Part shown: one piece after another, positions 7,065 to 62,739 of the stretch
Layout of the letters: each line of letters opens with the position of its first letter
How positions within the stretch are numbered: position 1 is the stretch's first letter
Source of the DNA: Mesostigma viride
Taxonomy: Eukaryota; Streptophyta; Mesostigmatophyceae; Mesostigmatales; Mesostigmataceae
NCBI GenBank assembly: GCA_009746045.1
Contig: RPFO01002048.1
Coordinates: 245,001-309,000 of the forward strand
DNA length: 64,000 bases
Direction of reading: 5' to 3'
The notes under the pieces: generated by a model
Seen by the model: the letters and a program-made list of their open reading frames with translations, nothing else
The model's database searches: none
Told to the model about the DNA's origin: nothing
Position numbers and translations under genes: made by a program

Positions 7065-10000
7065 ATGTACCCACCACCATCCACGTCCGCCAGGTGGCGT
7101 CGCCCGCCACGCGGGGTCTTTGCAGGCCCGCCGCCCTGGAGGATGTGGTGGCCTACATGCGTGCAGGGCCAGGGGCCCTGATGTTCACGAGGAGGGCGCC
7201 ACGTTGGGTCCACCATGCGGATAATGGGGGGGAGGGGTCACCCAATAGCAGTCCGGAGGCAGGACAAAAGGGCACTGACGGTGGTCATGACGGCGATGAG
7301 AAGGAGGAGGAGGAGGAGGAGGACGAGGATGACGATGTAGATCCGTCAACGCTGGCATTGATCTCTTTTACGGCGCGACTCAGTGGCCGCTACACCCTGG
7401 GTGTGCTGGTGCGGGGAAGCGCCGCCCGGAACAGCCCCCTTCAGGTGGAGGTGCTCAAGGTACCTTAGCCATAGTTAGCTGCCTTTCTTTTTAGTTAGCT
7501 GCCTTTCTTAACAACTCCGCCAGGATCATCCATGGTGTTGATTGGCCTTGCATGCGATCTCACCTAAACCACGCAGTGTGCTGCATTTTATTCTGTTGTG
7601 ACTGCAAGCAACCCCAGTAGAGGATGCATGCATGCTGCTCGCTACGCGACATACAAACGCCGTCCACACACTCTCTCTTGCCGTATATAAACTTCCTCCT
7701 TTATCGCGCAGGGTGACAGGTGACAGGAACACCATGTTAAGGTGTACTCCACACAGGGGTGAGCTTGTCTGCGCATGGTAAGCTGAGTTGTGCTCTCGGC
7801 ATTTCGTCCTCCCCCCCTGCCTGTCGTCCGGCACCTCCCCAAAAGTCCTACGCGATACCTGTCTAATCTGCCACCCGTCTGTCCATCCCCCTGCAGGCGG
7901 TCACCGTCCCTGCCTCGTGCTACGCGCGGGGAGCCGGCCTGCGGCGTGCGCTGGCGGGGGAGTCTGCCCGTTTCGTCATCCTCGCGGTGGACCAGCTGGG
8001 GAACAAGGTGAGGCTGGGGAACAAGGTGGACCCGCGGGGGAGCAAAGTGAGGTGGTGAACTCGCGGGGGAGCAAGGTGAGGCGGTGGACCCGCGGGGGAC
8101 AAGGTGAGGCGGTGGACCCGCGGGGGACAAGGTGCGGCGGAGGACCCGCTGGGGAACCAGGGAGCGGGGGAGCAAGGGAGCGGACCGTGGGTCACAGGGG
8201 AGGGATGCGCGCAACGTTCCCACACGCGCAGGTGCTCGCGGATGCTTGCACACGCGCAGGTGCTCGCGGATGCTTGCACACACGCCGGTGCTCGCGGATG
8301 CTTGCACACGCGCTGGTGCTCGCGGATGTTTGCACACGCACAGGGGCTCGCGGATCTGGATTCCCTTGCGTTTGCGCTACAGAAGCCATGCTGCGAAGGT
8401 GGTGTGCATCGTCTTGTCATGCAGCTGTGAGTCCAGGATGGAATATCGAGCTGCGGGTTTCCCTCCTGTGCAGCGTTTAGGTCCCCTTTTCTCCATGGCC
8501 TGCTGCGGGTTGCTTTCCTGTGTAGGCACCCGTTTAGGTCCCCTTATTTCCATGGCCAGCTGCGCGAGGCACACCTCTGTCGACCAGGCTATGGCAACTT
8601 CACCATTCATGGCTATTTGCCCTGACCATGCCCTTCGCCCAGAATGCCCCATGCGCAGATATGAACGCGCTGATCCTTCCTGCCCTCATCCTTCCTGCCC
8701 ACCCCTTATATTCCAAGTGCTACCTCATACTAGTAGATAGAATCCAGTGGCTATTTAACTGTTTAGAATTCCACTTTGGTTCCTGGCCCCCGCTTCCCCT
8801 GCCCCTCCTCTCCCTATGTCCTCCCCTCTCCCCAACACGGCAGCGGCTGTCGGGCGGCGACCGCTTCCAGTTGGTCTTTTCTGGCCCGGCGCCCGTCGAC
8901 ACCACGCGCATCGTGGACGGCGCCAACGGCCGCTACACGGTCACGTACAACGCGCCCGCCGCCGTGGGGCTCTACTCGCTGGCCATCCTGCTGGACGGGG
9001 TGAACATCCGGGGCAGCCCCTTTGGCATCCTGGTGTCCCCGGGTGACGTGGAAGCCGCCAACTCCATCATCTCCAGCTTGGGCACGGCGCGTGACGGCGG
9101 CAGTGTCGCGGGCGACAAGCTCTTCCTGCACATCCACACGCGCGACAAGTGGGTCAGAAGCCGTGCACCGTGGGCTAGTGGGGGGGGGGGGCGGATTGAC
9201 GGGTTACAGTCATTCACGCTTTAGGTTGGGTTCACGCCTTCAGTTGGGTCGCCAGGATTTCGGCATCCTTAGTTCAAGCTAGTTCAGATTATTATGTTTT
9301 TGTACCTTTAGCTGAACGATTGAACGTATCTTTAGTTGAACGATTGATTTTTCACTCCTATTGGCGTTTTTTCGACCTTACAGACCTATTTTTTTACACA
9401 AATCGCCCAAGTCTTCAAAACTCCCAAGTCGAAGCAACATTCGACTGACAGCCCGAACAACTCACCTTTTACTTTACTTTTGGGGGGGGAGGGTGACTTA
9501 CCACCGGGCGCCATGCCACTACCTTTGCGACATCGAATGACCTCGCAGCACGCACGTGAAGCATTTCTAGTTTCAACTACCCAATGCCGCCCATGTTTTA
9601 CTGGGATTTATGAGCCGATCGTACGGCTGTGATTCCAGGATTGGGCGTGACATATTCCAGTCATGACGGCCTTCAGCCTAGTGCCTACTGTCTATAGGTA
9701 CTTCTTTTTTCCCCTGGTCAAGGTGAACTGACCATGCGGCCTCACGTATTCTCCACTTGTCTCTCCCGGTCAGGGCTAAGTTTGCTTTCTTGTTTGCGAG
9801 GTTCTAAGTGCAAATCATCTTTTTGCCCCTGTTGAAATGAGTACAACTTAGAATGCCGTTCGCGCCGGAGGTTGGGTTCACTCACCAAGTTGGGTGGATC
9901 CGGCTTATCCGGCGAGCCCAACTTAGGCGTGAATGACTGTACCTCCCACGCTATTCCTGACATCCACACACATGCGTGGTGGGGCGAGGCCAGGTGTGCC

Positions 10001-22000: not shown

Positions 22001-25000
22001 CAGCAGTAAGCATCAAATGCTTAAACTGCTTGGCCAGTTCAGGTTGTGCCACGAGGGTTTGCATCAGCCTCGTGGCATCGTCCGCACTAAAGCGTGGCAG
22101 GACGGAGCCTGCGGCCTCGCCACTTGGCGTATCTGTGTGTTCGCCCGTGCGGCTCCGTGTGCCGGAAGCCATCGGGATGTTTATGAATACAAGTTAAAGC
22201 CTCCGACCGACTAAGCTATGGCGGTCGGTCACGTTGAGCTTGAGAGAAGGTGAACACAGAGAACTGCTGTCGGAGCTGGCCAACCACTGGTTTATGTCTT
22301 AGCCAGCAAAGCCTATCCGGTTAACCGTAACTGTGGGACAGGCTAGCTGTCCGTACCGACCCGGATAAGGCCCCGGACTGGGGCCTAGGTGGCGCCGGCC
22401 CTAGGCGCCGCCCTTAGACCGGTCGACCGCATCGGACCGCCGGATTATAGCCGGCGGCTTAGCGGACGCTAGCGGAAGGCGTGCGGACGGACATGGGGAA
22501 CTTAGAGCCAGATCCTAGGGCTCTAGAGTTACTCAACTTCCCCTCCTTGGGGAATGCGCCTGCACTCAGGACCTGTCTTCAATGGCTCTCTACAGCGTGG
22601 GCGAGGTGTTCTACGACGTCACGCGCAGCACCTTTGACACTAGTGTGCCGGACCAGCCTGGGTAGAGTCGACCCAAAGCCCAAGGTGATGACAGGTCTTC
22701 CCGCGCCCTGGCTGTACACGCAGTACGCAGTTGAATGTGCAACTAGGGCGGATCTCCGTGAGGGCACCAAAAGGACGCCTGCAGGATAAGGAGAGTTGCT
22801 CGGCTCAATGAGCCCGGAAGCCAGAATAAAAATCAGAATGTTCTTGAGCCTTACCAGCTCAGCAGGCCCCATGCGATACATAGGGGAGTATGTGGGAAGC
22901 ACACCCTTGATGCTGTATGCGATAGAGGGCTGACATAGGAGGAGGGTAAAGAAGGTGTCTGGTCCTCAAAGACCTCCGACACATCTCGGATTTTGTAGTA
23001 CCTTACAGTTTCTTCATCTGTACAACCCACTCCTATCTCATCAAGGTCTGAAAAACACAGGAGGAGGTAGTTTGTTGGTACGATTGTCCACAGATAGCCT
23101 ATTGAGGAGAGGTGAGAGATACCCATACTCTTGAACGCCGGCATGAAGCTTGTCCTGAGACATAACTGCCTCCTCTAGCGTATTACTAGGAGTGAGAGCT
23201 ATTGGAGGGGTAGGATCCGGAAGAGAAAGGTGTTCTACCTCATACGCAAGCTTCTATGGCAATAACAAGCAGTCGTTGGTACAGACGGGGGACATCGGGG
23301 GCAGCATCCCAACGGATGGTTTCTCGGCGCCGCGCGCAGCAGCTGTGGAGTGGCCCTTGGTGTAGCGTCCATTTCTTTACCTGAACGTCGTCTGTGGAGC
23401 ATCTCACAGATTCACAGAGAGCCACACAGACATCGTGTGTTCCGGTAGTTCACCAGAATGCACTTGCTCCTACCGCTATCGGTATTTTAGCGCTTCACTA
23501 AGTTTGGTCCTCAACCACATACCGAAGAATTCCTATAGTGCGGTGTAGTTGACTATAGTAAAGCTCTCCTTGACCTCATCCCCTCTGCGTGCAAATGGCA
23601 GCAAAACTTTCCTGACCCTTCTCTCCCTGCTCTGCGTGCAAATGGCAGCAACACTTTTCTGACCCTCCTCTCCCTGCTCTGCGTGCAAATGGCATCAACA
23701 ATTTCCCGACCCTCCTCTCCCTGGTGCCGCGGCCGCTGCTGCCTGATCCCGCCACAGGCCCCATCCATGTGCCTAGCTGCACCCTGGACGACGACGACAA
23801 CGCGGCCACTCTCCGCGCCACCGCAGGTGTCCCGTCCGACATCACCGTGACGCTGCGCGACCGTTTTGGCAACGAGCGGCCCGACGCGGGCGCCGCCCTG
23901 TGGGTGTCCCTGCGCCGCAAGCACGGGGAAGATACCAGGGAACCTGGCGCATCCCCTGGGGGCTTGCATGTGCCAGCTGTCCCCGGTCCCATCGAATCGT
24001 CAGAAACCAACCCACCGGATTCCCCTTCCCTGCGTGATGCGGCAGCGGAGGGCCAGGTGGCGCCCGTTGCCTGGCCAGGGCCCTGGGACCCTGCGGCGGC
24101 CGGCGTGGGGGAGGAGGTGCACGAGCTAGGGCAGGGCCGCTATCGCGCGGCATTTGTGCGGCAGCGGGCGGGGCGGTACCAGCTGCGCGTGCTGTGTCGC
24201 GAGGACAGCCTGGGGCAAGCACGGGGGGGGGAGACCTGCGAGGCGATCGCAGTCATGAGCACGCCCGCGCGCGTGGGCACTCCACCGGTTACGGCAGCCA
24301 GTGCCGCTTCAGAAGCCAAAGGAGGCGCCTTCGCCCATGCCCCCACCGAAGCGGCCTCGCTCTCGTCCATCGACCAACGGCCCTTGTCCTCGTCCCCCTC
24401 GCTGGCCTCGCTGATGGCGCCGCCGTCATTGACCGCATCCCCCGCCTCGTCGCATTCTAGCCCTGCCGCGTCCCTGGGTGCTTACCCAGGGACGCCGCAA
24501 CCCGCGTCCCACGTGGCGGCGGACGGCAGGGGGAACGGCGCAGCGGGCGGGGCACGGGGGACCGACACGGGCGTTGTGATGTGGGAGCTGATCGAGCAAC
24601 GCGAGGTCGTGGTGGTGCCGGGTACGTGAGCAGGTGGTCACTATAGTATAGTGTGGGGTGGTGCCGGGTACGTGAGCAGGTGGTCACTGTAGTATCGTGT
24701 GGGGGGGTGCGCACGTACACGAGTCGCGGGTGGTGCTGGTCCATGGCGTGTGAGGTGGCAGCGATGCAAGTTGGCGGCTGTTTGTAGCCAGCAGGTGCAA
24801 GGTGACCAGCGTAGCGCAAGTCAAGGTATATATTTGTTTAGAACGCCAGAAGGCCAGTCATGGCGGTGCGAGAGTTGTGCGTTCGGAACAGGAGGTGGCG
24901 GCAAGTTGGCTCTGGGCTTTACAACCACATGTTTGGCGATCTGCGGTTCGTCGGGCATTGTCAAAAGCTAAAAGTAACAATTGCGGAATTCGCCTGCCTA

Positions 25001-28000: not shown

Positions 28001-29325
28001 TTTGGAGGCGGCACAGCTGGCGCAGCTGGAGGTGCGGGCGGCCAGGAACGAGCAGATTGCCTTTGTGGATGGCGCAGGCAGACGGTTGTAGGTTATGTTA
28101 GAGCAGGCAGATGGTTGTGGGTTGTGCTAAAGCAGATAGCTGTTGTGGGTTGTATCCAAGCAGGCAGATGGTTGTAGGTTGTGTTAAAGCAGGCAGATAG
28201 CTAGTGGTTGTGGGTTGTGTTAGAGCAGACACTGGTGTTGTGTGCGTGTGTGCGCGTGTGCATATATGCTTTTCTGTGTGTTGTCGCATTTAGCAACTCA
28301 CCAGCACGTCGTTTTTCTTTTTCTTTTTCTTTTTTTTTTTTACCGAGCTCAATATTGAGGTATATTGCTAAATCAAGATGCTAGAAATTCCTTTTTCTTA
28401 GGAGCCAGCTTGTCAGCCAAGGGTGCAGAGGGTGTGGAGGGTGCAGAGGGGGGAGGGGGGACAGCCTTGACAGCCTGACCAAAAGCCTAATGACACGCAC
28501 CTCTCCCATCCCTGTTGCGGGACACTTCCTCGGCACCCTTGCGGTCGCTTTGCCTCTAACAGGACCATATGGGCTCCACAGGAGATGACCCGAGCACTTG
28601 GCAGGGACCAGGGGGGCAGGCACAGGGGCCCGGCTCGCCCGCAGGGCCGGCGCCCCCTGCCCACCTCCCTGGTGGGTCGGAGCGGGCCGCGTCGGACCTG
28701 CGCGCGGTGCGCATCGCACGCCTCAACGCGTTGGCGCGCTACCTCCATCGCAAGCGGGAGACGCTGCTGACGGTGCAGGTGGTCAACGCGCTGCAGCAGG
28801 TAAGGGGATGCCCTCACTATCCTCAATTCATTACTCTCTTTACCCTCGTACCCTCGCTTTCTCTACCCTCATGTCCTGCATTTGCCCTTTCTATCTATTT
28901 CGTGTGGGGGATGGTGATCCATTCACCCGGCAGGTAGGCCCCGGCCTTGCACATGCAGTCTGTCACAAGGTCATCGAGGCAGTGCTCCTCGAGTGCGTTT
29001 TCTCGCAGCAACTAACTGCTGGCTGGCTCGGTGGCGGGGTGCTCCATGTCACACCTGGCACACCGACCTCATTGTGCTGCAGGTGAGCAAGCCGCTGCAC
29101 ACCGACACGGGCGCCAGCAGCGGGCTCTGCGCGCGCAGGCGCATGCTGGGCGTGGACAAGCGGCAGGACCAGAAGATGGTGGGGGGCCACGCGGACCGGC
29201 ACAAGCTGTCCCTGCCCCCTGGGTGGGAGAACCGGGTCAAGTCCGCGGCCGAGAACAAGCAGCAGCGTCTCGTGGAGCTGCGGCGCAGGAAGTTGAGGCA
29301 ACCGGAGGCCTCCTACACAGAGTGA
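7065..29325 (+). CDS. Large filamin-repeat protein, 3' portion of gene (at least 15 exons)
   Basis: Exons read: 7065-7459, 7897-8007, 8844-9148, 10331-10599, 11449-11889, 12988-13111, 16672-17237, 17835-19118, 19672-20292, 23758-24621, 25940-26137, 26723-27142, 27850-about 28077, 28563 or 28582-28799, 29083-29325 (stop). Together they give about 2,100 codons. Phases agree at every junction except exon 13/14; most introns from exon 7 on are phase 1. The product has at least seven filamin/ABP280-type immunoglobulin repeats, recognised by D-x-x-G-N turns (DQLGN, DKCGN, DRYGN, DCYGN, DDCGN, DRFGN, DAFGN) and closing strands such as NIRGSPFGILVSPG. Filamin repeats usually act as elastic or binding modules in cytoskeletal or surface proteins. 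No actin-binding CH domain is visible, but the 5' end is missing. No signal peptide or membrane segment was seen. The exact function is unknown. Confidence 0.85.
8008..8165 (+). repeat. Tandem repeat grown from the exon 2 donor
   Basis: Exon 2 ends GGGGAACAAG followed by gtgagg. The same GGGGAACAAGGTG recurs 18 bases on. Diverged versions (GGGGGAGCAAGGTGAGG, GGGGGACAAGGTGAGG) then repeat about every 28 bases to about 8165. Each unit carries a potential donor. Confidence 0.8.
8220..8356. repeat. 28-bp minisatellite, about 5 copies
   Basis: Unit reads CACACGCGCAGGTGCTCGCG followed by GATGCTTG, with small changes between copies. It lies in filamin intron 2. There are no spacers, so it is not a CRISPR. 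Confidence 0.9.
10013..10200. repeat. Degenerate CTG/TTG-rich repeat in filamin intron 3
   Basis: Runs of TTGTGTTGCTGCTG-type blocks in irregular order. The rest of intron 3 (9149-10330) is unique sequence with short G and T runs; no gene is recognised in it. Confidence 0.75.
10755..10945. repeat. 10-bp minisatellite GGGATGGTGA
   Basis: About 18 copies, regular from about 10830 and interrupted before that. It lies in filamin intron 4. The minus strand reads as a Ser/Pro/His-rich open frame that is an artefact of the repeat. Confidence 0.92.
12594..12935. repeat. 9-bp minisatellite CCCTTGYTG, about 38 copies
   Basis: Mixture of CCCTTGTTG and CCCTTGCTG units, often in the order GTT-GCT-GCT, giving a 27-bp higher-order pattern in places. 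It lies about 50 bases before the acceptor of filamin exon 6. It produces open frames of Leu-Pro or Cys-Cys-Pro repeats that are not genes. Confidence 0.93.
13517..13605. repeat. 24-bp repeat, 4 copies
   Basis: Units of GCCGTCCTTCCCCTTTTTGT followed by CGCC in filamin intron 6. The last copy is diverged. Confidence 0.85.
13704..14207. repeat. 28-bp minisatellite, 18 copies
   Basis: Unit CATGGTCTGTTGGGCATACA followed by TGTCTAAT, nearly invariant except one ACATAT copy near 13945. It abuts the left end of the element at 14209. A 17-bp sequence just left of the array (13681-13697, CATTTTGCGCTCGGCTC) recurs with one mismatch at 16391-16407, just right of that element. Confidence 0.95.
14209..16385. 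mobile_element. Element with 600-bp direct terminal repeats (TRIM-like)
   Basis: The terminal repeats are 14209-14809 and 15786-16385. Both start ATTGCGGATCATTGCCTGCC and end GAAAAMCGATT. I count about six differences between them, so the insertion looks young. The 976-bp interior (14810-15785) has no long open frame and no protease, integrase or reverse transcriptase motif. A small non-autonomous terminal-repeat retrotransposon fits the layout, but the repeats do not start TG or end CA and no primer binding site is evident. It could instead be a tandem insertion of another element type. It sits in filamin intron 6. Confidence 0.65.
16672..19118 (+). other. Filamin gene exons 7-8: linker-rich central region
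   Basis: Exon 7 begins DPDVPKVGQDATQK directly after the phase-2 junction with exon 6. It contains a basic Lys/Gly/Ser-rich stretch and ends in a filamin closing strand (SYILDMVLDDEY..SIAGCPFTVAVAGP). Exon 8 (428 codons) is mostly low-complexity Ala/Gly/Ser/Thr sequence. It closes with RWELLEDAVPLLVLVQPG, which resembles the end of exon 10 (MWELIEQREVVVVPG), so the two exons probably descend from one duplicated module. Long disordered inserts inside filamin repeats are unusual but the reading frame is open throughout. Confidence 0.8.
17465..17735. repeat. 53-bp minisatellite, about 5 copies
   Basis: Unit contains CTCATGTCCTGCTGCGCCCA and CACACACACGCGCGGGTGC. It lies in filamin intron 7, about 100 bases before the acceptor of exon 8. 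Confidence 0.9.
21050..21331. repeat. 41-bp minisatellite, about 7 copies
   Basis: Unit CCGGTCATCACACGGCATGA followed by TGAGGACGGGGTGGTCCATCG, with one C/G and one G/A variant. It has no spacers. Confidence 0.93.
21853..22255. repeat. Pair of 63-bp direct repeats around a small antisense open frame
   Basis: The copies at 21853-21915 and 22193-22255 start AGTTAAAGCCTCCGACCG and are essentially identical. Each contains an inverted repeat GACCGAC/GTCGGTC. Between them the minus strand has a 98-codon open frame (22172-21876, MASGTRSRTGEHTDTPSGE...) with no recognised family; its 3' end runs into the left repeat. It may be part of an element related to the antisense reverse transcriptase fragment nearby, but the order (pol upstream) does not fit a simple single insertion. 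Confidence 0.7.
22336..22457. other. Cluster of hairpins in filamin intron 9
   Basis: Inverted repeats in close succession: GGACAG/CTGTCC, GGCCCC/GGGGCC, GGCGCC/GGCGCC, the palindrome GACCGGTC, and CCGCCGG/CCGGCGG with a 7-base loop. The function is unknown. It may be a structured part of the adjacent retroelement. Confidence 0.6.
22579..23080 (-). mobile_element. Ty3/gypsy-like reverse transcriptase fragment, degenerate
   Basis: On the minus strand a 107-codon frame contains YRMGPAELVRLKN...LIEPSNSPY, the entry to the reverse transcriptase domain of Ty3/gypsy elements (known family pattern: YRM-P-E, then I-PS-SP). An upstream frame ending about 22930 contains VFEDQTPSLPSS, which resembles the stretch before that domain but lies in another frame, so a frameshift separates them. 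The catalytic block is not seen after the PVITLGF segment. It is a dead fragment, antisense to the filamin gene. Confidence 0.65.
23575..23720. repeat. 47-bp repeat, 3 copies, next to the exon 10 acceptor
   Basis: Unit contains CTGCGTGCAAATGGCAGCAA and ends CTCTCCCTG. The last copy runs into the polypyrimidine region before the acceptor at 23757, so each copy brings pyrimidine-rich sequence. Confidence 0.85.
24612..24703 (+). repeat. 46-bp duplication of the exon 10 end and its donor
   Basis: Exon 10 ends GTGGTGCCGG and is followed by gtacgtgagc. The same GTGGTGCCGGGTACGTGAGC starts again at 24658, 46 bases later, with the following sequence also repeated. The second copy is an intact decoy donor. 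Confidence 0.88.
24980..25588. mobile_element. Lone diverged copy of the 600-bp terminal repeat
   Basis: It starts ATTGCGGAATTCGCCTGCC and ends GAAAACCGATT, matching the terminal repeats at 14209 and 15786 along its length with frequent substitutions and small gaps. It sits alone in filamin intron 10, like a solo terminal repeat. No target duplication could be made out. Confidence 0.7.
26165..26480. repeat. Two adjoining minisatellites (31 bp and 43 bp)
   Basis: First a 31-bp unit (ATGACAGCATGCTGGATGAT...) in three full copies and one short copy. Then a 43-bp unit (CATGGCACGGCTCCACCCTT GTACAGG...) in five copies. They lie in filamin intron 11, starting 27 bases after the donor. Confidence 0.92.
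27850..29325 (+). other. Filamin gene exons 13-15: charged helical C-terminus
   Basis: Exon 13 (VRADEGDQLALRLEHAHG...) and exons 14-15 lack filamin motifs and look like charged helices ending in KQQRLVELRRRKLRQPEASYTE and a stop at 29323-29325. The exon 14/15 junction is a clean phase-0 GT-AG. The exon 13/14 junction is unresolved. No GT donor before the in-frame TAG (28088) fits the best acceptor (28562) without losing conserved-looking sequence. A GC donor at 28078 (CGCAG|GCAGA) would join in phase 1 to the acceptor at 28581. Confidence 0.65.
28071..28225 (+). repeat. About 30-bp repeat starting at the end of exon 13
   Basis: GCAGGCAGACGGTTGTAGG at the presumed exon 13 end recurs as GCAGGCAGATGGTTGTGGG and further diverged copies, about five in all. 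The array overlaps the unresolved splice junction. The rest of the intron to 28562 holds a CT/T-rich tract near 28315-28340. Confidence 0.75.
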
Positions 29326-37000: not shown

Positions 37001-40000
37001 GGTCATAGCCTGGTACCACATCTGAACAACATACTGTATATATGCTTTGACGTTCTGTGCATACGCTTTGACGTACGGTATATATCACTGGGTATGAGGA
37101 GGCCCTGCCTGCTACAGGAATGGTGGCCCTGCCTGCCGTGGCGCATGTCATGCAGCCTAGTGGCAGGCGGCCAGGGGAGAGTACGGTGGACGCTTCGCAC
37201 GCTCATCCACCCGTTACCCCTTGCCGCTACCCACCTACCATCCACAGTTACAGCGCCATAAACCAATTGGACCACCCACCCACCCACCCACCCACCCACC
37301 CACCCACCCACCCACCCACCCACCCACCCACCCACCCACCCCACGCTCTGCAGCATCCTTGCTTGCTCATGCACCCTTCCACCCATGTTGCCAGCTGCCC
37401 ACCTCACGCTTTCCAGCGTGCTCGTGGGCTCATCCATCCCTTTAGCCAACGATTCCACCCACACCCCTCTGCAGCGTTCTTGCTTGCTCCTCCATCGCTT
37501 TTAACCCATGATTCCAACCACCCACCTCATGCCCTTTATGTGCTCATGAGCACATCCATCCCTTTCAATTCATGATTCCACCCACCCACCTCACGCTCTG
37601 CAGCGTGCTGAGCCGCTTCTCGCCGCGCTCCAGCTCCGCCTGCCGCTTCTCGATCTTCTGCTCGAGGCTCTTCTCTGTTTGGGGCGGCAAAAGGATACGG
37701 TGAGGAGGGAATGGGATATAGATGGGGAGGCAAAAGGATACGGTGAGGAGGCAATGGGATATAGATGGGGAGGCAAAAGGATACGGTGAGGAGGCGATGG
37801 GATATAGATGGGGAGGCAAAAGGATACGGTGAGGAGGCAATGGGATATAGATGGGGAGGCAAAAGGATACGGTGAGGAGGCAATGGGATATAGATGGGGA
37901 GGCAAAAGGATACGGTGAGGAGGCAATGGGATATAGATGGGGCGGCAAAAGGATACGATGAGGTGAGGAGACATGGGTGGGACAATACATTGTAAGAGGG
38001 GAGCGCAAGAACTTCCAGGCTCTTCTCTGCGGGGAGAGAGGCAGGGGGGAGAGACCGGGAACCCAGAACAAGGCAGGGTGATAGTGACATGCGGGTGGGG
38101 AGCAGGGCATAAGAGAGAAGCGATGGTGTGATGCTCCAGGCTCTTCTCCGTTTAAGGTGACAAGAGGGAGCGATCGGGGAACAGGGGGGAGAGAGCAGGT
38201 TGTACGAGAGGAGGGCATGGCTCTTCTCCATGCAGGTAGATGGCGCAGGGCAGGGCATGGTGGGGAGGGACCAAACAACAAGAGCCGATGGCAAGCCAGT
38301 GTGTTCCCAACCTGTGGCCCTCTGCACAGGTGAACATGACTACCGCTTCGCAAGGCAACCCCCTTCGCAGGTTGGAGTGTGAAAATATTGGACAAGCGGG
38401 GGCAGCCTCCCCACAGCCTAGTCCTTGCTGCTGACCTCGCAGGCCACCTTGTTCCCAGAGAATGGGCAGACAGAGAATGGGCAGACAGAGAATGGGCCGA
38501 TGTGAACCCCCCCACAGGCTCTGCCCATCACGCCACATCCCATGAACAGGGCTGCCCATCACGCCACATCCCATGAACAGGGCTGCCCATCACGCCACAT
38601 CCCATGAACAGGGCTGCCCATCACGCCACATCCCATGAACAGGGCTGCCCATCACGCCACATCCCACGAACAGGGCTGCCCATCACGCCACATCCCATGA
38701 ACAGGGCTGCCCATCACGCCACACCCCACGGCATGACCACGTCCCATCTCGCAGGCACACCATCCTCTCCACTGGCTGCCATCCCCTGTGCCCCAATCCA
38801 CCATGTTCTTGCCCACCCCACATGGCCCCCTACCCCCCCCTTACATGCCCCCCTAACCCCCCACCCCACATGGCCCCCTACCCCCGTTCCCCCTGCTGCA
38901 GTGCGCACCGTCTTTCTGCAGGTTTGCCAGCGTGGCTTCCACGTTGGCAACGTTCTTCCCCCCCCATGACAGGCCCCACACCCCCTCATCCCCTTGTTCA
39001 CCCCCCTACTGTGGCGCACCGTCTTTCTGCAGGTTTGCCAGCGTGGCTTCCACGTTGGCCACGTTTTCCCCCACGGCAGCAATGGCCTCTCGCACCGCTC
39101 GTTCAATGTCATCGATGTCCATGTTGCGGCCGACAGCACGCATGCGCGCCTCCTGCGAACAGAGGTTGGCGGGTGAGGGCATGGGGGCATAAGTGCATAG
39201 GGGCGGGGGCATGGCCCACAAACCCCACCTTGACCGCCTGCCCTTCACCCCGCCCCACCTGTACGCCGCCGCCCCCCCACACACACACATGCCGACCACC
39301 TGCCCCCCACCTCCCCCATCCCCCATCACACCCATCTTCACTACTCCACACAAACCTGAAAATGCCCCCCCCTTCCCCACCTATCTTTTACCTGCCAACT
39401 CCAACCTCCCCTACCCCCCCACCTTGCGGTCCGGCTCCCTCTCGCACGCGTCGCAGATCCACGAATAGCGCGCCTGCTGCCCCGCCCACCTTCACCTGCC
39501 CCCTTACAGCACCACCTTACCACCCCCCGCCCACCTTCACCAACCCCCACCAGCATGCATAACCCCCCCACACCAACCTTGAGCTCAGGCTCCCTCTCCA
39601 GCGCGTCGTAGAGCACGGCGCCCCGCTGCGTGATCTCGCTGGTCAGAGCGCGCGTGACCTTGGCGTCAAACATCTTGGCGTTGAAGGTGAACTCGTTCAG
39701 ATCGTCGCCCGCCTGGGGTTGGGGGTGGTGCAGTGAACCACACAGGTACAGGTATAGTGAATGCACATTACAGTGAACTCGTTCAGGTTGTTGCCCGCCC
39801 GGGTTGGTTGCGCATGGCACAGTGAACACACAGGCATATAGTGAACGCGCACGTTTATCGAGAATGCACATGGTCTCAGAACTAACAAATATGGTGAGCG
39901 CGCTTGTTAGAATATACGCATATTTGGTTAGCACACTAATAGAATATACACATATGTGGTTAGCGCGCTTGTTAGAATATGCACAAATATGGTTAGCACA

Positions 40001-40482
40001 CTAAATAGAATATACACAAAAATGGTGAGCACACTAAATAGAATATACACATATGTGGCTAGCACAATAGAATCTACGCACGCGTGGTCAGCACACTTGT
40101 TAGAATATACACGTATGTGGTTAGCGCACTGGACGTACGGTATATGAACTCATCCACGTCATCGTCTGTCAGCGGGCATGCAAAGAGCAATCTATGGGCA
40201 GCGAGTATGCATGCAGAGTGGACATTTGTATTGAGAACACAAGTACGGCGGACAGGGGCTGATACTCCACGCAGACATGCTGCAGAAGACAGTTCGATAC
40301 GGCAATGTCATCATTGCTGCATCGTTGCTGTGCGTGTGCAGCAATGACAGATATAGGCGATAAAGGTATGAGGGAATTGTATGCATGTAGTGACTTCACA
40401 CGTCACGTGCACCGATAGAGTAAGCAACAGTGCCTAGTCCGCCCACGTAGGCCACCCGCAAGCGAAATCACCAGCAGAGAGA

Positions 40483-40563
<81 letters not shown>

Positions 40564-45095: not shown

Positions 45096-48000
45096 ATGTT
45101 TTCCCGTTCAAGTGGACGAGCTCCTGGGAATGCGAAACCGCCTGGTGCATCTCCGGTCTGGTCGCCCTTTGTTCCAACAAAGGGACTTTTGGCAGCAGAC
45201 CAAAATGCGAATGCCAATCGAGTGCGCAGCTTTCCAGGGGATGAAGCTGTTGCCGCCAGCGGTTCAGAGAACATGCCGGTTTGGCAGCGGTCGCAGAATG
45301 CCGGGTCGGCGTCCTCGGACAGAATGAATCTAGCTGACAGGGACGAGCTGCTTAGGCGGGTTGCGGAGCTGGAAGAGCAGGTATGCCCTTGTAGAACGGC
45401 TAAGCCCTCCACTTTCCCGTGCATACGAACCAATCGGAGAATACAGTTGTGTGCTACCGGCGCCATCTTGCAATCGCACGCGTCCTGTTGCTAAGGCCTA
45501 CATGGCGTGCCTTACGTTCTAAATCAACGGTAGACGGGATATGCCCGCCAATTGGTCATGTTCTGAATGTCTCCTGTGCAACCACCGCGTTGTGAATACT
45601 TGTTCCTTTAAGTTCATGTTCTGAACGTCTACTGTGCAACCACCGCATGTTGAATACTTGTTAATGGAAGGTCATGTTCTAAACGTCTCCTGCGCAACCA
45701 CCGCATGGCGAATACTTGTTCCTTCAAGGGCCATTAATGTGCACCTCATCCACCTTGTGCCACTTCTCACTGTGCCTTAGGCTGCCACGTGGCGCACCTT
45801 GCACACACTGCAAGTGGATGGATTCTTACAGGGGAACTCAGAAGTGTAAGACTCGGCAAACAAACAGAGGACCAGCGCTGAATTGTTGCCCGAGGCGTAG
45901 CCTTGTACATGGATGGTTGCTTCTGGAGTGCTGGGACCTTGATGCCCCAGCTCCGCTGCACGTCACACCCTTGTGCGCGACCAGGTGTGCGCGCACACCC
46001 TGCCCCTGTGCGCCACACCGGCCTTCAGGCATGACAGCATCTTGCTCTGCGTGCCAAAGCCAGGCATTTTTTAATGGCCGTTCGGGCCAATGTGATGACT
46101 GGCCCACCGTGATGACGGCTGCAGGTCGCGGAGAGGGAGTGTCATGTGACATGTGGCGCCTGTGGCTCCCTCCTACCTCACCGTTGACGTTTGGGAGTAG
46201 CTGGCCATCACGTTGCCAGCCCTGCGTACCACGCTGCGCCAGGTGGCACAACCATCCATGCTCTGCCAATCCTCCTTGCCAGATGCCACAACTTCCCCCC
46301 TTCCCTCTCTCCCCACACTTACGCATGTCATAATCATCCGCCCCCCTCCCCCCCGCACGTGCCCAAGGGCCTTGTGGCTGACTGGCAGCATGCCAGCCTC
46401 CTCTGTACCAAAGAATCCTCCCCCCCACCCACCCTGCCTTGCCGAATTTCCTCCCCCCCACCCCCACCCCCTGTGTCAATTCTCTAACCCCCCCCATACC
46501 ACTTCCCACCTAATGTCCTTATCAACCTAATGAACCAACCCACCCACCCACCCACCCACCCACCCACCCACCCACCCACCCACCCACCCGCCCGCCCGCC
46601 CGCCCGCCCGCCCGCCCACCCACCCACCCACCCACCCACCCTTCCATCCACCCACCCGCCCTCCCACCCGCCTGCCCGCCCACCCCCTCGCCCCCCCGCC
46701 CGCTTGCCCACCCACCGACCGACCCATGGACCAACTAACCAATTAGTGCGCGGCGTTGGAGGCGGAGCGGCGCGGCCTGGAAGCCGACTTGGCGGCGGTG
46801 GCGGATGACCGCGAGCAGGCGGCGCAGGCGGCGGTGGAGTGGGAGGCGGAGACCAAGATGGAGCAGGCCGCAGCCGCGCAGATGAAAGGGCGGTACGAGG
46901 AGGCAATATCCATCTTGCGGCGCGACCTGGCCGATGTGACGCAGCAACGCGACGCGGTGGGTCGGGTGGGGTGGGGTGGGGTGGGGTGGGGTGGGGTGGG
47001 GTGGGGTGGGGTGGGTGGGTGGGCAGGGGGGGGGACCGACGGCCTGCGGGTTTCACTGGTGGCATTGTGGACAAGTGGGTGTGCGCGCCAGTAAGTAGAG
47101 CGGTGGTGGTTCGACGGGGTAGGTGAAGGTGGACAAGTGGGTGTGCGCGCCAGTAAGTAGAGCGGTGGTGGTTCGACGGGGTAGGTGAAGGTGGACAAGT
47201 GGGTGTGCGCGCCAGTAAGTAGAGCGGTGGTGGTTCGACGGGGTAGGTGAAGGTGGACAAGTGGGTGTGCGCGCCAGTAAGTAGAGCGGTGGTGGTTCGA
47301 CGGGGTAGGTGAAGGTGGACAAGTGGGTGTGCGCGCCAGTAAGTAGAGCGGTGGTGGTTCGACGGGGTAGGTGAAGGTGGACAAGTGGGTGTGCGCGCCA
47401 GTAAGTAGAGCGGTGGTGGTTCGACGGGGTAGGTGAAGGTGGACAAGTGGGTGTGCGCGCCAGTAAGTAGAGCGGTGGTGGTTCGACGGGGTAGGTGAAG
47501 GTGGACAAGTGGGTGTGCGCGCCAGTAAGTAGAGCGGTGGTGGTTCGACGGGGTAGGTGAAGGTGGACAAGTGGGTGTGCGCGCCAGTAAGTAGAGCGGT
47601 GGTGGTTCGACGGGGTAGGTGAAGGTGGACAAGTGGGTGTGCGCGCCAGTAAGTAGAGCGGTGGTGGTTCGACGGGGTAGGTGAAGGTGGACAAGTGGGT
47701 GTGCGCGCCAGTAAGTAGAGCGGTGGTGGTTCGACGGGGTAGGTGAAGGTGGACAAGTGGGTGTGCGCGCCAGTAAGTAGAGCAGTGGTGGTTCGACGGG
47801 GTAGGTGAAGGTGGACAAGTGGGTGTGCGCGCCAGTAAGTAGAGCGGTGGTGGTTCGACGGGGTAGGTGAAGGTGGACAAGTGGGTGTGCGCGCCAGTAA
47901 GTAGAGCGGTGGTGGTTCGACGGGGTAGGTGAAGGGGGGGAAGGCTGCTGTCTTCTGTTGGAGAAAGGAGGGATGGTGGCTGATGGCAAGGAAGGTGCTT

Positions 48001-51000: not shown

Positions 51001-54000
51001 AGAAACAGTGTATCAGAAACAGTGGTTCGGCTCTCTTTTGCTTGTATCAGAAACAGTGTATCAGAAACAGTGGTTCGGCTCTCTTTTGCTTGCATCAGAA
51101 ACAGTGCCAGGCGGATCCTGGTCAGCCGAGGGATCCGCGTTTCTGTTTTTTGCTACGTTGCCATGGAGGACACCTCGCATCCGTTTGCCATGACCCATCC
51201 CTTTGCCATCATCTGTTCGCTGTTTCCGATTTTTTGCCATCCCCCTTCATTGTAGTGACGGATAAGCCTTGTTCAAGTCATGTGGCTGTGTCGCCCAGCT
51301 GATCCTTGTAGCTGGTGTAGCCGGTGTGCTCTCGTGCCCCTGGACATGCCCCTGCCCCTGCTGTCTCGTGCGCTTGCCAGCTGTCGGCGCGTGCGCGCGA
51401 GGCGGCGGCATCGTCGCGCGACGAGCTGTCAAGCAAGGAAGCCCTGCTCACGGCCGCGCTGAACGAGCTGGAGGCGCTCAAGAAGGAGCGCGAAAAGGAG
51501 CGCTCCGCCCCTGTGCCCAGCGCCGCCATGGCTAAGTGGGTGCCGGCATTTGGTGGCAAATGCGGGCAAACGAAAGGACTGTGGTTGCAAGTGGTGGCAA
51601 GTGGTGGCAAATGGGGGCAAGAATGGTGGCAGGTGTATGCTGCGTGGTGGCAAATCCATGGCAATGGTTTATAAATTGGCAAAATTATTGCTTTTGGTCG
51701 CGATTTGTGGGGCGTTGTGGCAATTATTAGCACTTGGTTACATGCGCATGCACATGGTCACAAGACCACACCTGGGACACGGGCGCCTTCATTCGTTAGG
51801 AACATTCTTGATACAGCAGCAGGTCGGCACATTGCAGCAGCAGACCGGCGCGCCGCAGCAGCAGGTCGGCACGACGTAGCCGCAGGTCGGCGCGTCGCGG
51901 CAGCAGGTCGGCACATTGCAGCCGCAGGTGGGCGCGTCGCGGCAGCAGGTCGGCACATTGCAGCCGCAGGTCGGCGTGTCGCGGCAGCAGGTCGGCACAT
52001 TGCAGCCGCAGGTCGGCGCGTCGCGGCAGCAGGTCGGCACATTGCAGCCGCAGGTGGGCGCGTCGCGGCAGCAGGTCGGCACATTGCAGCCGCAGGTCGG
52101 CGTGTCGCGGCAGCAGGTCGGCACATTGCAGCCGCAGGTGGGCGCGTCGCGGCAGCAGGTCGGCACATTGCAGCCGCAGGTGGGCGCGTCGCGGCAGCAG
52201 GTCGGCACATTGCAGCCGCAGGTTTCCCGATGCTGGCAACTGCTACAGATGCTGGCAACTGCTCCAGATGCTGGCAACTGCTCCAGATGCTGGCAACTGC
52301 TATGCTCGGCCGGACCATGGTCGTAGATTACCCTGCAGTCCTCACATCCTGGGCCCTGGGAACCCCCATCGGGTTTGCCTTCTTTGCCCCTCACTGTCAG
52401 GTGCCTTTACCTCTGCCTGTAAACGGCTCCTCCCCTCCCTCTATTGTCTCTGAGCCCCCCTCCTCTATTGTCTCTGTGTCCCCCCCCCCTCTATTGCCCC
52501 CAGGTTCCAGCAGGACAAGGCGGCCCTGGAGGCGCGCGTTGCGGCGGTGGAGGCGCGGGAGGCAGGAGTAGCACGCCAGCTGGCGGAGGCACAGGCGGCC
52601 GAGCGGGCGGTGGCCGACCAGCAAGCGTCACTGGCGGAACGGGAGAAGACGGTGGAGGCGGAGAGGGCGGCGGTGGTCGGTGCGAAGGAGCTGCAGGCTG
52701 CCGTCACCAAGCAGCTGCAGGTGGGGGTAGTGGGCACAAGACGGTGGGAGGCGGGGCAAGGGGCAGGCCGCCGCCACCAAGCAGCGGCAGGTGGGGGTAG
52801 TGGGCACAAGACGGTGGGAGGCGGGGCAAGGGGCAGGCCGCTGCCACCAAGCAGCGGCAGGTGGGGGTCGTGGGCACAAGACGGTGGGAGGCGGGGCAAG
52901 GGGCAGGCCGCCGCCACCAAGCAGCGGCAGGTGGGGGTCGTGGGCACAAGACAGTGGGAGGCGGGGCAAGGGGCAGGCCGCCGCCGCCAAGCAGCGGCAG
53001 GTGGGGGTAGTGGGCACAAGACGGTGGGAGGCGGGGCAAGGGGCAGGCCGCTGCCACCAAGCAGCGGCAGGTGGGGGTCGTGGGCACAAGACGGTGGGAG
53101 GCGGGGCAAGGGGCAGGCCGCCGCCACCAAGCAGCGGCAGGTGGGGGTCGTGGGCACAAGACGGTGGGAGGCGGGGCAAGGGGCAGGCCGCCGCCGCCAA
53201 GCAGCGGCAGATTGGACCTTTGGTTCAGTGGGCATGAGGCTGCATCGCAACGTTGTGTAAGGGGTATGCCCTTTATTTTCCTTCGTCCCTCAGGATTGTA
53301 TGGAGTTTTCTGCTGTTTGAAACTTGACATGAACTCATCGCATACAAGGGTTCAGCACGACCACACTCGTGCTCCCCTTCTGCCACCATGCGTCACCGCA
53401 ATCGTGTGGCCCTTCTGCCATCATACGTCACCACACTCGTTTGGCCCTTCGCTGTCATTGCTGCCACTTTCTTATTCCGAATGGTCCCCACCCCATTGGC
53501 CCCTCCTTAGCCCCCTTCCCCTTTCCCCCGCCCCCCATCTCACGCACTCCCCCCCCTCCCCCCCCCCCTTCCGCCCCCCCCCCGCGTCCCTGTGCAGGAG
53601 GTGGAAGCGAAGCAGCGGGCGCTGGACGTACGCACGATGCAGGTGTCGCAGCGGGAGGCGGAAGCCAGGGCGCAGTCGCTGGCGTTGTTGGGGCGCGAGC
53701 AGGTGAGGGCGAGAGAGGGGCGCGAATAGGCACTATTAAAGGGAGGGGCGTGAGCAGGTTAGGGGGGAGGCGAGGGGAGCAAACAGGTACTTGATGGGGG
53801 GGGGGGGAGGGCGTGAGCAGGTAAGAAGAGAGGGAAGGGACGCGAAAAGAAAAGGGGGGGGGGGGACGAACAGGGGAGGTGAGGGGGGAGAGAGGGGCGC
53901 CAATCGGTGTTAAAGCTGGGGGCCTGAACAGGTAAGGTGGGAGGGGAGGGGTGCCAATAGCTTTTGTGAGGGAGGTGTATGTGTGCAGATGTGTGTGGGT

Positions 54001-57000
54001 ATGTGACCCACAACCCTAAAACAGAAGGTATGTTGCATTTGAAGATATGTTTTTACGTGTGATATAGTATTATAATTAAACCCTAAAACAGAAGGTAGGT
54101 TACGGTTGAAGGTAGGCGCATTTGAAGGTATGTGTGGGAAGAGCACCCACACGGTACGCATGTGGGCTTGCGGTGGTGAAGCCATGCGTGGGCCATGTGC
54201 AGGCAGTTAGACAACATCACATCAAGCAAGAAGACTGAGCGTTTTTTTGTGGGCGCGGTCTGCCACGGCAGTTGATGGAAGGGGGCACGGGGAGTGTCGC
54301 CGCGGGTGATGAGCGCTTCCCGGTGTAGTCATGGTGGCGTTGGGGCAACCAGGCAAGGCTGTCTGCTACGCTCCGCCTCCAACGCTCCGCCTGGGCTTTT
54401 GGGTGGGGTAAGCAGGCTCAGGGCTAGGACGAGTCAGGCATTCGTGTGTGTTAATTACAGGCGTATGTGGCCAATCGGCTTGACATTTCCCCCTATACCC
54501 CTTCCGCCCCTTGCTCAACTACCTGGCGTGCCCCCCCGTTCCCCCCCATCCCCCCCATCCCCCCCCATCCCCCTCCCCTGCAGGCGCTGCTCTCTGGCCA
54601 GGACACGGTCTCCCGCCGCGCGTTTGAGCTGGCGGAGCGCGAGGCCTCTCTGAACGCGCAAGGGGAGGGCGTGCAGGCCGAGGCGTCGCACGTGCAAGCA
54701 GAAGCGGACCAGATCGCCCAGAAGCAGGCGGCTCTTGGCGAGCTGGCGCGCGATCTGGAGGAGCGCAGCCAGCAGCTGGCGCTGCGCACCGACGAGGTGG
54801 GGGGTTGTGTGCAGGAGTGCGACGAAGTGGGTGCCTATTTATAGCGCGTGTCAAAGTGGGTGCCTATGCATAGCACGTGTCGAAGTGTGTGCCTATTTAT
54901 AGCACGTGTCGAAGTGGGTGCCTATATATAGCACGTGTCTATTTATAGCGGACTGAGATGTGTAACATAACCGATGGAGTGCCTTGATTGGAAATAGCGA
55001 ACCATAGAGATGAGAGTCTTGTTATAGTGAGCTGGCAAGGGGGGCATCTGTTTATAGCGACTACTGAGGCGGGGGCCTGTGTATCGTGAAGCAATAAGGT
55101 GGGGGTGCATAGATAACAATGTCGGGGGAGGGGCTCCTGCGTGCCGGGGGAGGGGCTCCTGCGTGCCGGGGGAGGGGCAATCGGGGCGCTTGTCTTTACC
55201 GAAAAGCAGGCGCTGAGAGTCAGCGAGTTGGGCAGGGGTCAGCGGTTGATTCCCATGGGCCGTAGTTGATGCTGGATTGCATCTTCACATTCTGCTCAGC
55301 TCATGGCTTCCCATACTGGCTAACTCATGGCTTTCCTGCCGAAGAGGCTGACATACACATCCGGGCCTCTAGCCGTGGCCAGAATGCTCCTACCCATCCG
55401 CACGGAATGTCCCCGAGGGTCGGGCCACGGGATCGGCGGGTCGATGCCCCTATCCCTCCTGTGCGCTGCCTGGGCTATTAGCAAACGTGGATCACGTTGG
55501 TTTGTCGCCTTCCCCCCCCCACACAACCCCCCCCAACACACACACACACACACACGACCTGCATTACCCCTCCACAGCTCCCCTCTCTTCCCCCTCCCAC
55601 CCCAACCCCCTCCCCTGATCGCCACCCCCCCACGCCAACCTCCACCTTTACCTCCACCTCCACCCCAACCCGTTTCCCCACCCGGACCCACACCTTAACC
55701 TCCATCACCGTTGCGGCCCTCTCCCACCTCTCCCCCCCCCCAACCCCACCCCCGCCAGGTTCGGCGCCGCGAGGTGGTGCTGGCCCTCCTGCGGGAGAAG
55801 GAGACGGAGCTGGCGGTTGCAGAGGATTCGCACAAGCGTCGAGAGGGCGAGCTGGCGGCGCGCGACGCGGAGACGGCGTCGCATAAGCGGGGACTGGAGG
55901 CGAGGGAGGTCGCGGTGGTCAAGCGGGAGGAGGATGTGGCGGCCGCACGGCGCGCCATGCAGGAGAAGATGGAGGGTCTAGCGCAGTTGGTGCGTGTGTG
56001 AGGGGATGAGGCGTGGGTGTGTGAGGGGATGAGGCGTGCGTGTGTGAGGCGATGAGGCGTGCGTGTGTGAGGGGATGAGGCGTGGGTGTGTGAGGGGATG
56101 AGGCGTGTGTGTGTGAGGGGATGAGGCGTGGGTGTGTGAGGGGATGAGGCGTGCGTGTGTGAGGGGATGAGGCGTGGGTGTGTGAGGGGATGAGGCGTGC
56201 GTGTGTGAGGGGATGAGGCGTGGGTGTGTGAGGGGATGAGGCGTGGGTGTGTGAGGGGATGAGGGCATTGCATGTCGGGTAGGGACGTGGGGTGGGACGC
56301 GCCAGGAGGACTGGGAGCAGCGTGCGTGCGTGTGGTGGGGAGGGCGGATGTTGGAGCATGGCTGTGTGCGCGCGTTTGAAGTGGTGCAGTGGGCGGTGTG
56401 TGGCGTAGCCGAATGAGCTCGGGTCGTGGGCGCATGGGTTTGGGTTTTGCGCAGCGGGTGGTTGTGTGGGCTAGCCGCAGGGAGGTAAACCACTCTGTAA
56501 GGGGTTTTGCTTACTAAAATGCTCATGATAGAGTGCCCTTGGTGAGCTACACAGGGTTTGAGTTTGTTCAAGGTTCTAGGTCATACTTTTGAGGCTGGGT
56601 GTGTCAGCATATACTACCGGGCGGACAGGTGTAGCATCCGTTTTACGCTGAATTCATGCTATTTCAAGGCTATTATCAATACACCACGAACCTTACCCTC
56701 TCTTCTCATCTTCTCATATCGTTTTTATCTGCCCGAATTCGCGCCCCCTGGCAGGAGCGGTCCCTGGAGCTCCGCGCCGCCGAGGTGGCAAACCTGGAGG
56801 CTTCCTTGGAGGCGCGCGAGCGGGCGGTGGCGCGCGCAGAGCTGACGGTGGCGGCCGAGCGGCGGCAGTGCAGCGTTTGCCGCAAAGAGGCCAAGGAGAT
56901 CGGCCGCGGGTCCTTTGCGTTCGGCTGGCTGGGGTCTCTGCTGTCTCCCATCAGGAGGGGTGGCGCCGCTTCTGCTGCCGGCACGCCCGAGGGTACCCCC

Positions 57001-60000: not shown

Positions 60001-61694
60001 TTTTGTACCCTTTTGTACCCTTTTGTACCCTTTTGTACCCTTTTGTACCCTTTTGTACCCTTTTGTACCCTTTTGTATCCTTTTGTACCCTTTTGTACCC
60101 TTTTGTACCCTTTTGTACCCTTTTGTACCCTTTTGTACCCTTTTGTACCCTTTTGTACCCTTTTGTACCCTTTTGTACCCTTTTGTACCCTTTTGTATCC
60201 TTTTGTACCCTTTTGTACCCTTTTGTACCCTTTTGTACCCTTTTGTACCCTTTTGTACCCTTTTGTATCCTTTTGTATCCTTTTGTACCCTTTTGTACCC
60301 TTTTGTACCCTTTTGTATCCTTTTGTATCCTTTTGTATCCTTTTGTACCCTTTTGTACCCTTTTGTACCCTTTTGTATCCTTTTGTACCCTTTTGTACCC
60401 TTTTGTATCCTTTTGTACCCTTTTGTACCCTTTTGTACCCTTTTGTATCCTTTTGTACCCTTTTGTACCCTTTTGTATCCTTTTGTATCCTTTTGTATCC
60501 TTTTGTACCCTTTTGTACCCTTTTGTACCCTTTTGTACCCTTTTGTACCCTTTTGTACCCTTTTGTACCCTTTTGTACCCTTTTGTACCCTTTTGTACCC
60601 TTTTGTATCCTTTTGTACCCTTTTGTACCCTTTTGTATCCTTTTGTATCCTTTTGTACCCTTTTGTACCCTTTTGTACCCTTTTGTACCCTTTTGTACCC
60701 TTTTGTACCCTTTTGTACCCTTTTGTACCCTTTTGTACCCTTTTGTATCCTTTTGTACCCTTTTGTACCCTTTTGTACCCTTTTGTATCCTTTTGTACCC
60801 TTTTGTACCCTTTTGTATCCTTTTGTATCCTTTTGTACCCTTTTGTATCCTTTTGTACCCTTTTGTATCCTTTTGTACCCTTTTGTACCCTTTTGTACCC
60901 TTTTGTACCCTTTTGTACCCTTTTGTACCCTTTTGTACCCTTTTGTATCCTTTTGTATCCTTTTGTACCCTTTTGGGTTGCGTAACGATCTTACTTGTAC
61001 TGGCGGGGCCCGCTCCTGCCATTGTGAAATCATCAATCTGACTCTTGGATGCCTCTGAGCCGGCATGGTGGATGCTTGGAGGTGTGCGTGCGTGGGGAAG
61101 CAGCGGTCCGCAGCGCGCGAGCCCATTGGTTCGCTGGTCCGCTCGCCTTGTCGTCCGCAGCGCACGAGCCCATTGGTTTGCTGGGCCACTCGCTTTGTCG
61201 TCCGCAGCGCACGAGCACACTGGTTTGCTGGTCCGCTCGCTTTGTTGTCTGGGTTCCACCAAGGGCTTGCCTTCACTGGGATACCCCACGCCCACGTGCG
61301 CTAGCTGTTGCGGCCTTCATCTGTGTGTGGCTGCATCATGGGGGCCGTTGGTTGGATTGGTGGATGGAGGAGGACACCACCAAGCCGACTGGCATACTCA
61401 CTCGGGAGAACGGATGCATGCAACTACAATTGTGAACAACTGCGGAAGGCAGGCAAAGGCCATTTGGTTTCTCATCGGTCAAGCAAAGCTAGTTGCCGCT
61501 GTCAGTAGGTAAAAGTAGCTGGTTGAAGCCATCAGTGATCACAATACCTGCTGGGGTGGAGCTCGTGGTGCTTCCCCATTAGAGGTGCGCCTTTGTAATT
61601 GCTTCACCATTGTAATCTTTCTGCCCTCTTGCAGCTACCTGCACCTGCCTGCTGGCCCATCCTCACTCGCTTTCATCTTGCACACACATGCACA

Positions 61695-61779
<85 letters not shown>

Positions 61780-62739: not shown

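Follow-up and report, generated by a model that had tools for sequence, protein, structure and literature searches.

Among the closest described systems is the RdRp gene of potato, in which a tandem duplication across an intron-exon boundary gave rise to a new intron that uses a previously cryptic donor (PMC4974935). Small tandem duplications as products of break repair with fill-in are documented (PMC8355091, PMC7407515); local direct duplications were described in rice, with insertions of 10-1000 bp (Vaughn and Bennetzen 2014 as cited in PMC7407515), and fill-in by Pol alpha-primase as well as short (<100 bp) insertions have been treated for the human genome (PMC8355091). Rogers and Bendich 2025 reported direct repeats that pair the 5' with the 3' intron border and have a mean length of 11.4 bp (PMC11782384), and introners are dispersed copies of a common element (PMC12730881). 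In this work, we describe copies of exon edges in the introns of Mesostigma viride, starting from a window of 64,000 nucleotides (the whole stretch of DNA that was analyzed, C202:245001-309000 in a genome of 440 Mb), which holds modeled genes for filamin, IFT38 and a coiled-coil protein, and extending to dynein heavy chain (DHC) genes elsewhere in the genome.

Introns of this genome often bear copies, now decaying, of the adjacent exon edge, which probably arose by small tandem duplication across the exon/intron border. The sample consists of 151 introns, 31 from the three window genes and 120 from DHC genes elsewhere that were defined by homology, and its scope is one genome, mostly one gene family, and predicted splice sites. 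A Smith-Waterman scan was applied to all introns alike, and a copy was counted if the local self-alignment score was at least 28 with an exon contribution of at least 10; the acceptor test was the mirrored donor test. As control, exon edges were exchanged between introns of different loci (n=523, same composition as the sample), with introns of >2500 nt not used as targets. On the donor side, the intron contains a copy of the end of the upstream exon, mostly including the donor, in 47 of 151 cases vs 4 of 523 swapped controls (p=6e-29), and on the acceptor side, the start of the downstream exon, mostly including acceptor sequence, is copied in 22 of 151 vs 3 of 523 (p=2e-12), which bears out the identity of repeat units with exons on which the original prediction had relied. 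Some donor copies cover the exon only, and the donor then appears on extending the alignment. At a stricter score of at least 40, donor copies remain in 30/151 introns vs 3/523 controls and acceptor copies in 11/151 vs 0/523; the swapped controls hold 3 donor matches with a score of at least 50. The DHC introns, which were not chosen for repeats, carry donor copies in 37/120 and acceptor copies in 18/120 cases. Within the window, donor copies were found in 5/10 introns of IFT38, 3/14 of filamin and 2/7 of the coiled-coil gene, and acceptor copies in 4/10, 0/14 and 0/7, respectively. Of the 17 gene pieces, 15 have at least one donor copy (12 of the 14 from DHC), and the proposed recurrence of junction-spanning duplication across genes is thereby upheld. 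These numbers supersede a blastn self-comparison (32/120 and 18/120 for DHC) that gave no offset <59 and missed a 46-bp unit at 24611 seen by Tandem Repeats Finder (TRF), probably because blastn discards self-alignments near the main diagonal.

The copies lie almost exclusively on the side expected of them. A copy of the exon end was found in the downstream intron of 40 of 124 exons vs the upstream intron of 1 of 124, and a copy of the exon start in the upstream intron of 19 of 124 vs the downstream intron of none; this own-side placement excludes a general similarity of exons with neighboring introns. The direction anticipated for the copies, 3' of the exon for donors and 5' for acceptors, was therefore recovered, although such a rule comes close to following from logic, as a copy beside an exon edge must fall 3' of a donor or 5' of an acceptor. 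The offsets are those of a local direct copy as left by a small tandem duplication, being 18-175 in 43 of the 47 donor copies (remainder 213-831) and 81-151 in 19 of the 22 acceptor copies (remainder 301-473), and they show no frame preference (mod 3 counts of 17/20/10 for donors and 7/8/7 for acceptors). The exon part measures 6-60 nt in donor copies, where 60 is the limit of the scan, and 12-43 nt in acceptor copies. The copies are diverged, with an average identity of 87% in the exon parts of acceptor copies and mostly 72-100% for donor copies, so that they are not assembly duplicates. Duplications that span the junction, leave the exon intact and go along with a longer intron are thus present in the sample.

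Exons of 60-600 nt did not contain internal duplications (0 of 106, 25 kb), and introns did in 90 of 148 cases, at 0.93 per kb. Internal duplications were also seen in 8 of 130 stretches between introns, all of them >700 nt and probably containing uncalled introns. DHC introns with a junction copy have a median length of 583 nt vs 513.5 nt for those without (p=0.027), which fits intron growth; exon-edge copies therefore point to one route of intron lengthening, and of the predicted intron growth by junction-anchored duplication, the growth fits the data and the anchoring at the splice site is not supported. The intron position inside WIENMNT/VLDD carries junction copies in 5/5 DHC paralogs, namely D@94, D@103, D@166, A@100 and A@400 (the last exactly at threshold), and as both kind and offset differ at this paired position, the events recur. 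For two of these five paralogs, J1 (G000:C1, ~11462795-11463349) and L040 7579-7943, the best intron alignment is a 32-nt exon-edge copy; both copies have a T where the exon has a G, which may reflect shared descent with constraint, or coincidence. In two DHC paralogs, the J1 intron 9573-10258 and the J2 intron 1093-2026 (joined-stretch coordinates) have 114 nt in common at their 3' ends (84%), beside a conserved exon and possibly by gene conversion.

The pattern is probably explained by small tandem duplications that cross an exon border and survive through use of the exon-proximal splice site, thereby lengthening introns. According to this mechanism, tandem duplications of ~30-200 bp would arise repeatedly in genes, the events being inferred from the copies that are seen. 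Duplications wholly within an exon would be removed by selection, and a border-crossing one would be kept as long as splicing continues at the exon-proximal site, as the protein would then be unchanged and the extra copy would pass to the intron. The intron would lengthen by about one unit, and the copy would decay or sometimes amplify into a minisatellite. Donor-crossing events would outlive acceptor-crossing ones more often, likely because an extra downstream donor would merely compete, whereas an extra upstream AG would tend to be met first past the branch point. The duplications themselves may come from fill-in at staggered breaks or at nearby opposite-strand nicks. In the gene models, the exon-proximal site is the one predicted to continue the protein.

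As in the potato RdRp gene, the duplicated segment includes an exon/intron border and one copy is removed by splicing, as we infer for Mesostigma; the potato case concerns one gene and a new intron, whereas here an old intron lengthens, no new intron was seen and the pattern occurs in 15/17 gene pieces. The local direct copies resemble those of patch-mediated or staggered-break duplication, whose formation is the subject of the respective papers (PMC7407515, PMC8355091). Like the repeats of Rogers and Bendich, they have one member at an exon/intron border (PMC11782384), but here an exon edge is paired with its own adjacent intron, and a 5'/3' pairing is at most weak. Introners likewise represent a route to more intron content, but the introns studied here share almost nothing between loci: an introner origin was rejected, as a blastn all-against-all comparison of the 151 introns (E<=1e-8) gave only 2 cross-locus pairs. 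The literature searched, which covered few subscription papers, yielded no account of exon-edge copies being pervasive in introns. While one border-crossing case is already in print, the prevalence appears to be new.

Donor copies outnumber acceptor copies (47 vs 22, p=0.0035), a ratio of about 2:1 that fits splice-site competition; all other contrasts between donors and acceptors, such as that within DHC alone (37 vs 18, p=0.014), were picked post hoc after inspection of the data. An upstream AG close to the true acceptor is expected to be harmful to splicing. Offsets <60 occur in 13/47 donor copies vs 0/22 acceptor copies (p=0.006), with one acceptor cluster in the 30-60 offset class at cluster level, and the AG is lost in 3/4 acceptor copies of IFT38; this loss and the absence of short acceptor offsets are consistent with such harm. 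The GT is kept in 38/43 donor copies vs 309/431 other adjacent pairs (p=0.018), the AG in 12/22 acceptor copies vs 135/216 other pairs (p=0.50), and the retention of GT exceeds that of AG (38/44 vs 12/22, p=0.007).

The strongest competitor, which we nevertheless regard as unlikely, is a duplication process targeted to donors, in which 5' splice sites would be hot spots of breakage or slippage owing to paused polymerase, R-loops and G-rich intron starts. Relevant in this respect is a simulation in which 2363 duplications were placed at random in 124 introns of 250-1000 nt and left to decay; evaluated with the same alignment scoring and a simpler count of internal events, it gave donor/acceptor/internal shares of 26/23/51% (232/205/460) for units of 60-180 nt. 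Several points weigh against the mechanism of border-crossing survival as outlined above. At offsets of 60-300, the donor/acceptor/internal clusters number 32/18/13 vs 16/14/32 in the simulation (p=1e-6), and at offsets of 30-60, they number 12/1/27 vs 4/4/32 expected (p=1e-4). This donor excess means that a simple neutral model needs either shorter ancestral introns together with a purging of acceptor events, or donor targeting. The purging itself would have to be deduced from counts and not from decay, as the acceptor copies show no significantly faster loss of AG than of other pairs. Moreover, the presumed use of the exon-proximal site rests on protein homology and reading phase.

The excess also persists among clusters whose intronic part alone is detectable (14/3/12 vs 5.5/4.5/19, p=3e-4), a set that removes the advantage of the conserved exon. 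Donor-crossing clusters reach 2-3 times the level of uniform placement with detection bias; for acceptors alone, none of the three cluster sets departed from the simulated count. Donor targeting is further favored by the retention of GT above neighboring pairs and by the window arrays that touch a splice site, all of which do so at donors (6/6, p=0.03). On the other hand, the donor exon parts of 6-60 nt place the breakpoints away from the splice site, and shorter ancestral introns combined with loss of acceptor events could yield an equal excess. Rough arithmetic suggests that the observed shares would be approximately reached with ancestral introns of ~170-200 nt if acceptor events were half as likely to be tolerated. 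Since a null model at present intron length may be too strict if introns were once shorter, the donor excess is evidence for donor targeting and not proof. The wider proposal that 5' splice sites are preferred duplication targets, that intronic donor copies are competent as decoy or reserve and that introns grow from the donor end seems to us equally doubtful.

A further possibility is that ordinary intronic tandem repeats were placed uniformly by chance and that junctions have no special role. In its favor, among 57 merged TRF arrays overlapping the 31 introns of the window, 6 touch a splice site vs 4.4 expected under uniform placement (p=0.27), 3 of these reaching at least 5 nt into an exon (3/57 arrays, starts 7986, 24611 and 52693) and 3 having an edge within 5 nt of the splice site. 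Clusters were evaluated in 148/151 introns (3 of >2500 nt omitted) with a complexity filter, and 7/173 fell outside the offset classes tabulated; internal to the intron were 61/63 clusters with offsets of 8-30 nt, 27/40 with 30-60 nt and 13/63 with 60-300 nt. As the internal share falls with offset size, the junction copies are mostly duplications of larger units, few of which turn into arrays. Junction-crossing clusters, in turn, make up 50/63 at offsets of 60-300 vs 49% simulated. For units of at least 30 bp, chance placement is contradicted by the simulation unless introns were much shorter at the time of the events, and as a general explanation we consider it improbable. Applied to the original prediction, these data do not support its claim that minisatellites originate at junctions: in the window introns, arrays do not touch splice sites significantly more often than under uniform placement, and most window arrays do sit mid-intron, which was named there as the outcome of chance. 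Likewise, exon parts spread over 6-60 nt show that breakpoints are scattered and not fixed at the splice site, and an anchored MINISATELLITE process was therefore rejected on these exon parts and the window array count.

Wrong gene models, assembly errors or low complexity could in principle mimic the copies, all the more as the splice sites are predictions, but an artefact of this kind is very improbable. The swapped controls match the sample in composition, the cluster analysis was filtered for complexity, and the splice sites of IFT38 and DHC come from aligning homologous proteins, those of filamin and the coiled-coil gene from continuity of phase. The IFT38 protein derived from the window matches PDB 8bd7_L, presumably a Chlamydomonas protein, over residues 1-426 (E=2e-116); its splice sites were placed by hand, and a spliced aligner given ~310 N-terminal residues of 8bd7_L recovered introns 1-8 of the 10, 8/8 identical to the hand model. 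In the filamin and coiled-coil models, the reading phase is kept across 21/21 introns. The Pfam Filamin cut-off was passed by 1 of 3 filamin exons scanned, and a Pfam match was absent in the single coiled-coil exon scanned. The DHC genes were located by Pfam PF12774 (44 matches in the genome), 10-kb stretches were taken, and spliced alignment to homologous dyneins with 5 references per locus set 120 introns in 14 gene pieces. Candidate introns were excluded if they were <150 nt, lacked a C or T preceding the AG, or had too few supporting references (<3, or 2 if the flanks were weak); the DHC locus L042, which has a single 2357-aa open frame, was excluded as well. GC donors were modeled in 4/151 introns, two of them in filamin (10567, 28078). 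A dynein open frame from a different contig has the green algae Apatococcus fuscideae and Raphidocelis subcapitata among its named matches, which together with the IFT38 match points to a green algal host. Some DHC genes have open frames of ~1650-2440 aa round AAA1 (C1909, C458, C2022:737k, C1624:1125k), and their paralogs have introns every few hundred bases; a search with actin, HSC70 and tubulin also gave mostly long open frames, including tubulin and several HSP70.

Hardly credible at all is intron gain after the Rogers model, in which an exonic AGGT segment is duplicated in tandem and its two copies become the ends of a newly formed intron. Tandem duplications overlapping exons do exist here, and the 5'/3' borders are similar with a score of at least 22 in 5/151 introns, slightly more often than in swapped ones (7/680). 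However, the offset came within 60 nt of the length of the intron for none of the 69 junction copies, and no border pair scores at least 28 (0/151), so that the copies are not at the opposite splice site and this type of gain was rejected.

The genes and individual sites of the window are collected in the table. Eleven sites had been cited in the original prediction as arrays or duplications that begin at a splice site and copy it. Eight of them hold (8008, 24612, 35800, 36740, 38902, 39418, 52691 and 53703, with 35800 and 36740 as acceptors), 37590 is marginal with an exon contribution of just 10, 54797 gave no match, and the array at 55990 is not an exon copy (its highest-scoring alignment, at 24, has an unrelated offset). 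IFT38 has more than was cited, namely acceptor copies for the exon starts 39712 and 37674 and donor copies for the exon ends 36599 and 35685. Weaker acceptor copies were noted by eye near 38012 and 38220 for exon start 37674 and near 36020 and 36112 for exon start 35825.

Table. Modeled genes and splice-site-associated copies or arrays in the window (window coordinates)
Feature	Position	Strand	Description
Filamin gene	7065-29325	+	15 exons, 14 introns modeled
Filamin donor 8008, array	7986..8155	+	First unit contains exon end (13 nt by alignment, 22 nt by TRF) plus donor; ~28-bp units
Filamin donor 9149		+	Score 29, offset 831; counted among the 47, probably chance
Filamin donor 24622	24611..24710	+	46-bp unit, 11 nt exon plus donor, 2.2 copies
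Filamin GC donor 28078 (modeled)	28074..28198	+	29-bp array starting 4 nt inside exon
IFT38 gene	42983-34084	-	11 exons, 10 introns modeled
IFT38 acceptor copy, exon start 39712	39773..39853	-	26 nt exon; offset 84-86; AG to GG
IFT38 donor-side copy	39418..39457	-	35 nt exon end (39578-39612) plus few intron bases; offset 155, 80%
IFT38 copy of donor 39020	38864..38962	-	53 nt exon end plus donor; offset 110; exon part 98%
IFT38 acceptor copy, exon start 37674	38132..38167	-	16 nt exon; offset 473; AG to GG
IFT38 decayed units, exon end/donor 37590	37332..37565	-	Exon contribution only 10, marginal
IFT38 acceptor copies, exon start 36788	36850..36988	-	43 nt exon; offset 104-111
IFT38 donor-side copy, exon end 36599	36287..36316	-	25 nt exon, 80%; offset 307
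IFT38 acceptor copy, exon start 35825	35904..36019	-	25 nt exon, 100%; AG to AT
IFT38 donor-side copy, exon end 35685 (part)	35642..35683	-	Offset 53
Coiled-coil gene	45096-58068	+	8 exons, 7 introns modeled
Coiled-coil 5-bp G-rich array	46959..47034	+	Starts 2 nt past donor; without exon copy
Coiled-coil donor 52721	52693..53210	+	70-bp unit, 28 nt exon end plus donor, 7.4 copies, 96% matches
Coiled-coil donor 53703 copies	53745..53861	+	13 nt exon end plus donor; offset 55
Coiled-coil 23-bp array, 12 copies	55990..56264	+	Starts at first intron base; exon copy not significant

The window contains further repeats and elements. A 39-bp satellite of ~175 copies (95% matches) occupies 1-6713 and ends near the first modeled filamin exon, and a 10-bp array (CCTTTTGTAC) of ~286 copies extends over 58119-60975, beginning ~50 nt past the stop codon of the coiled-coil gene. 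The filamin intron 13112-16671 holds two identical stretches of 300 nt, 1577 nt apart from start to start (14209-16085), which look like the terminal repeats of a young, non-autonomous LTR element; similar sequence was seen by eye near 25000. A reverse-transcriptase fragment (Pfam RVT_1, E=3.6e-9) lies downstream of filamin at 30143-30628.

The lengthening of introns is usually ascribed to transposons and slippage. With fossil copies of exon edges at about one third of the donors and about one seventh of the acceptors sampled, border-crossing duplication looks like a steady contributor. As the source of each copy is a known conserved exon, the rates of such events, the survival of donor vs acceptor copies and the decay of spare sites are directly measurable, and it is predicted that many spare donors would be open to alternative splicing.

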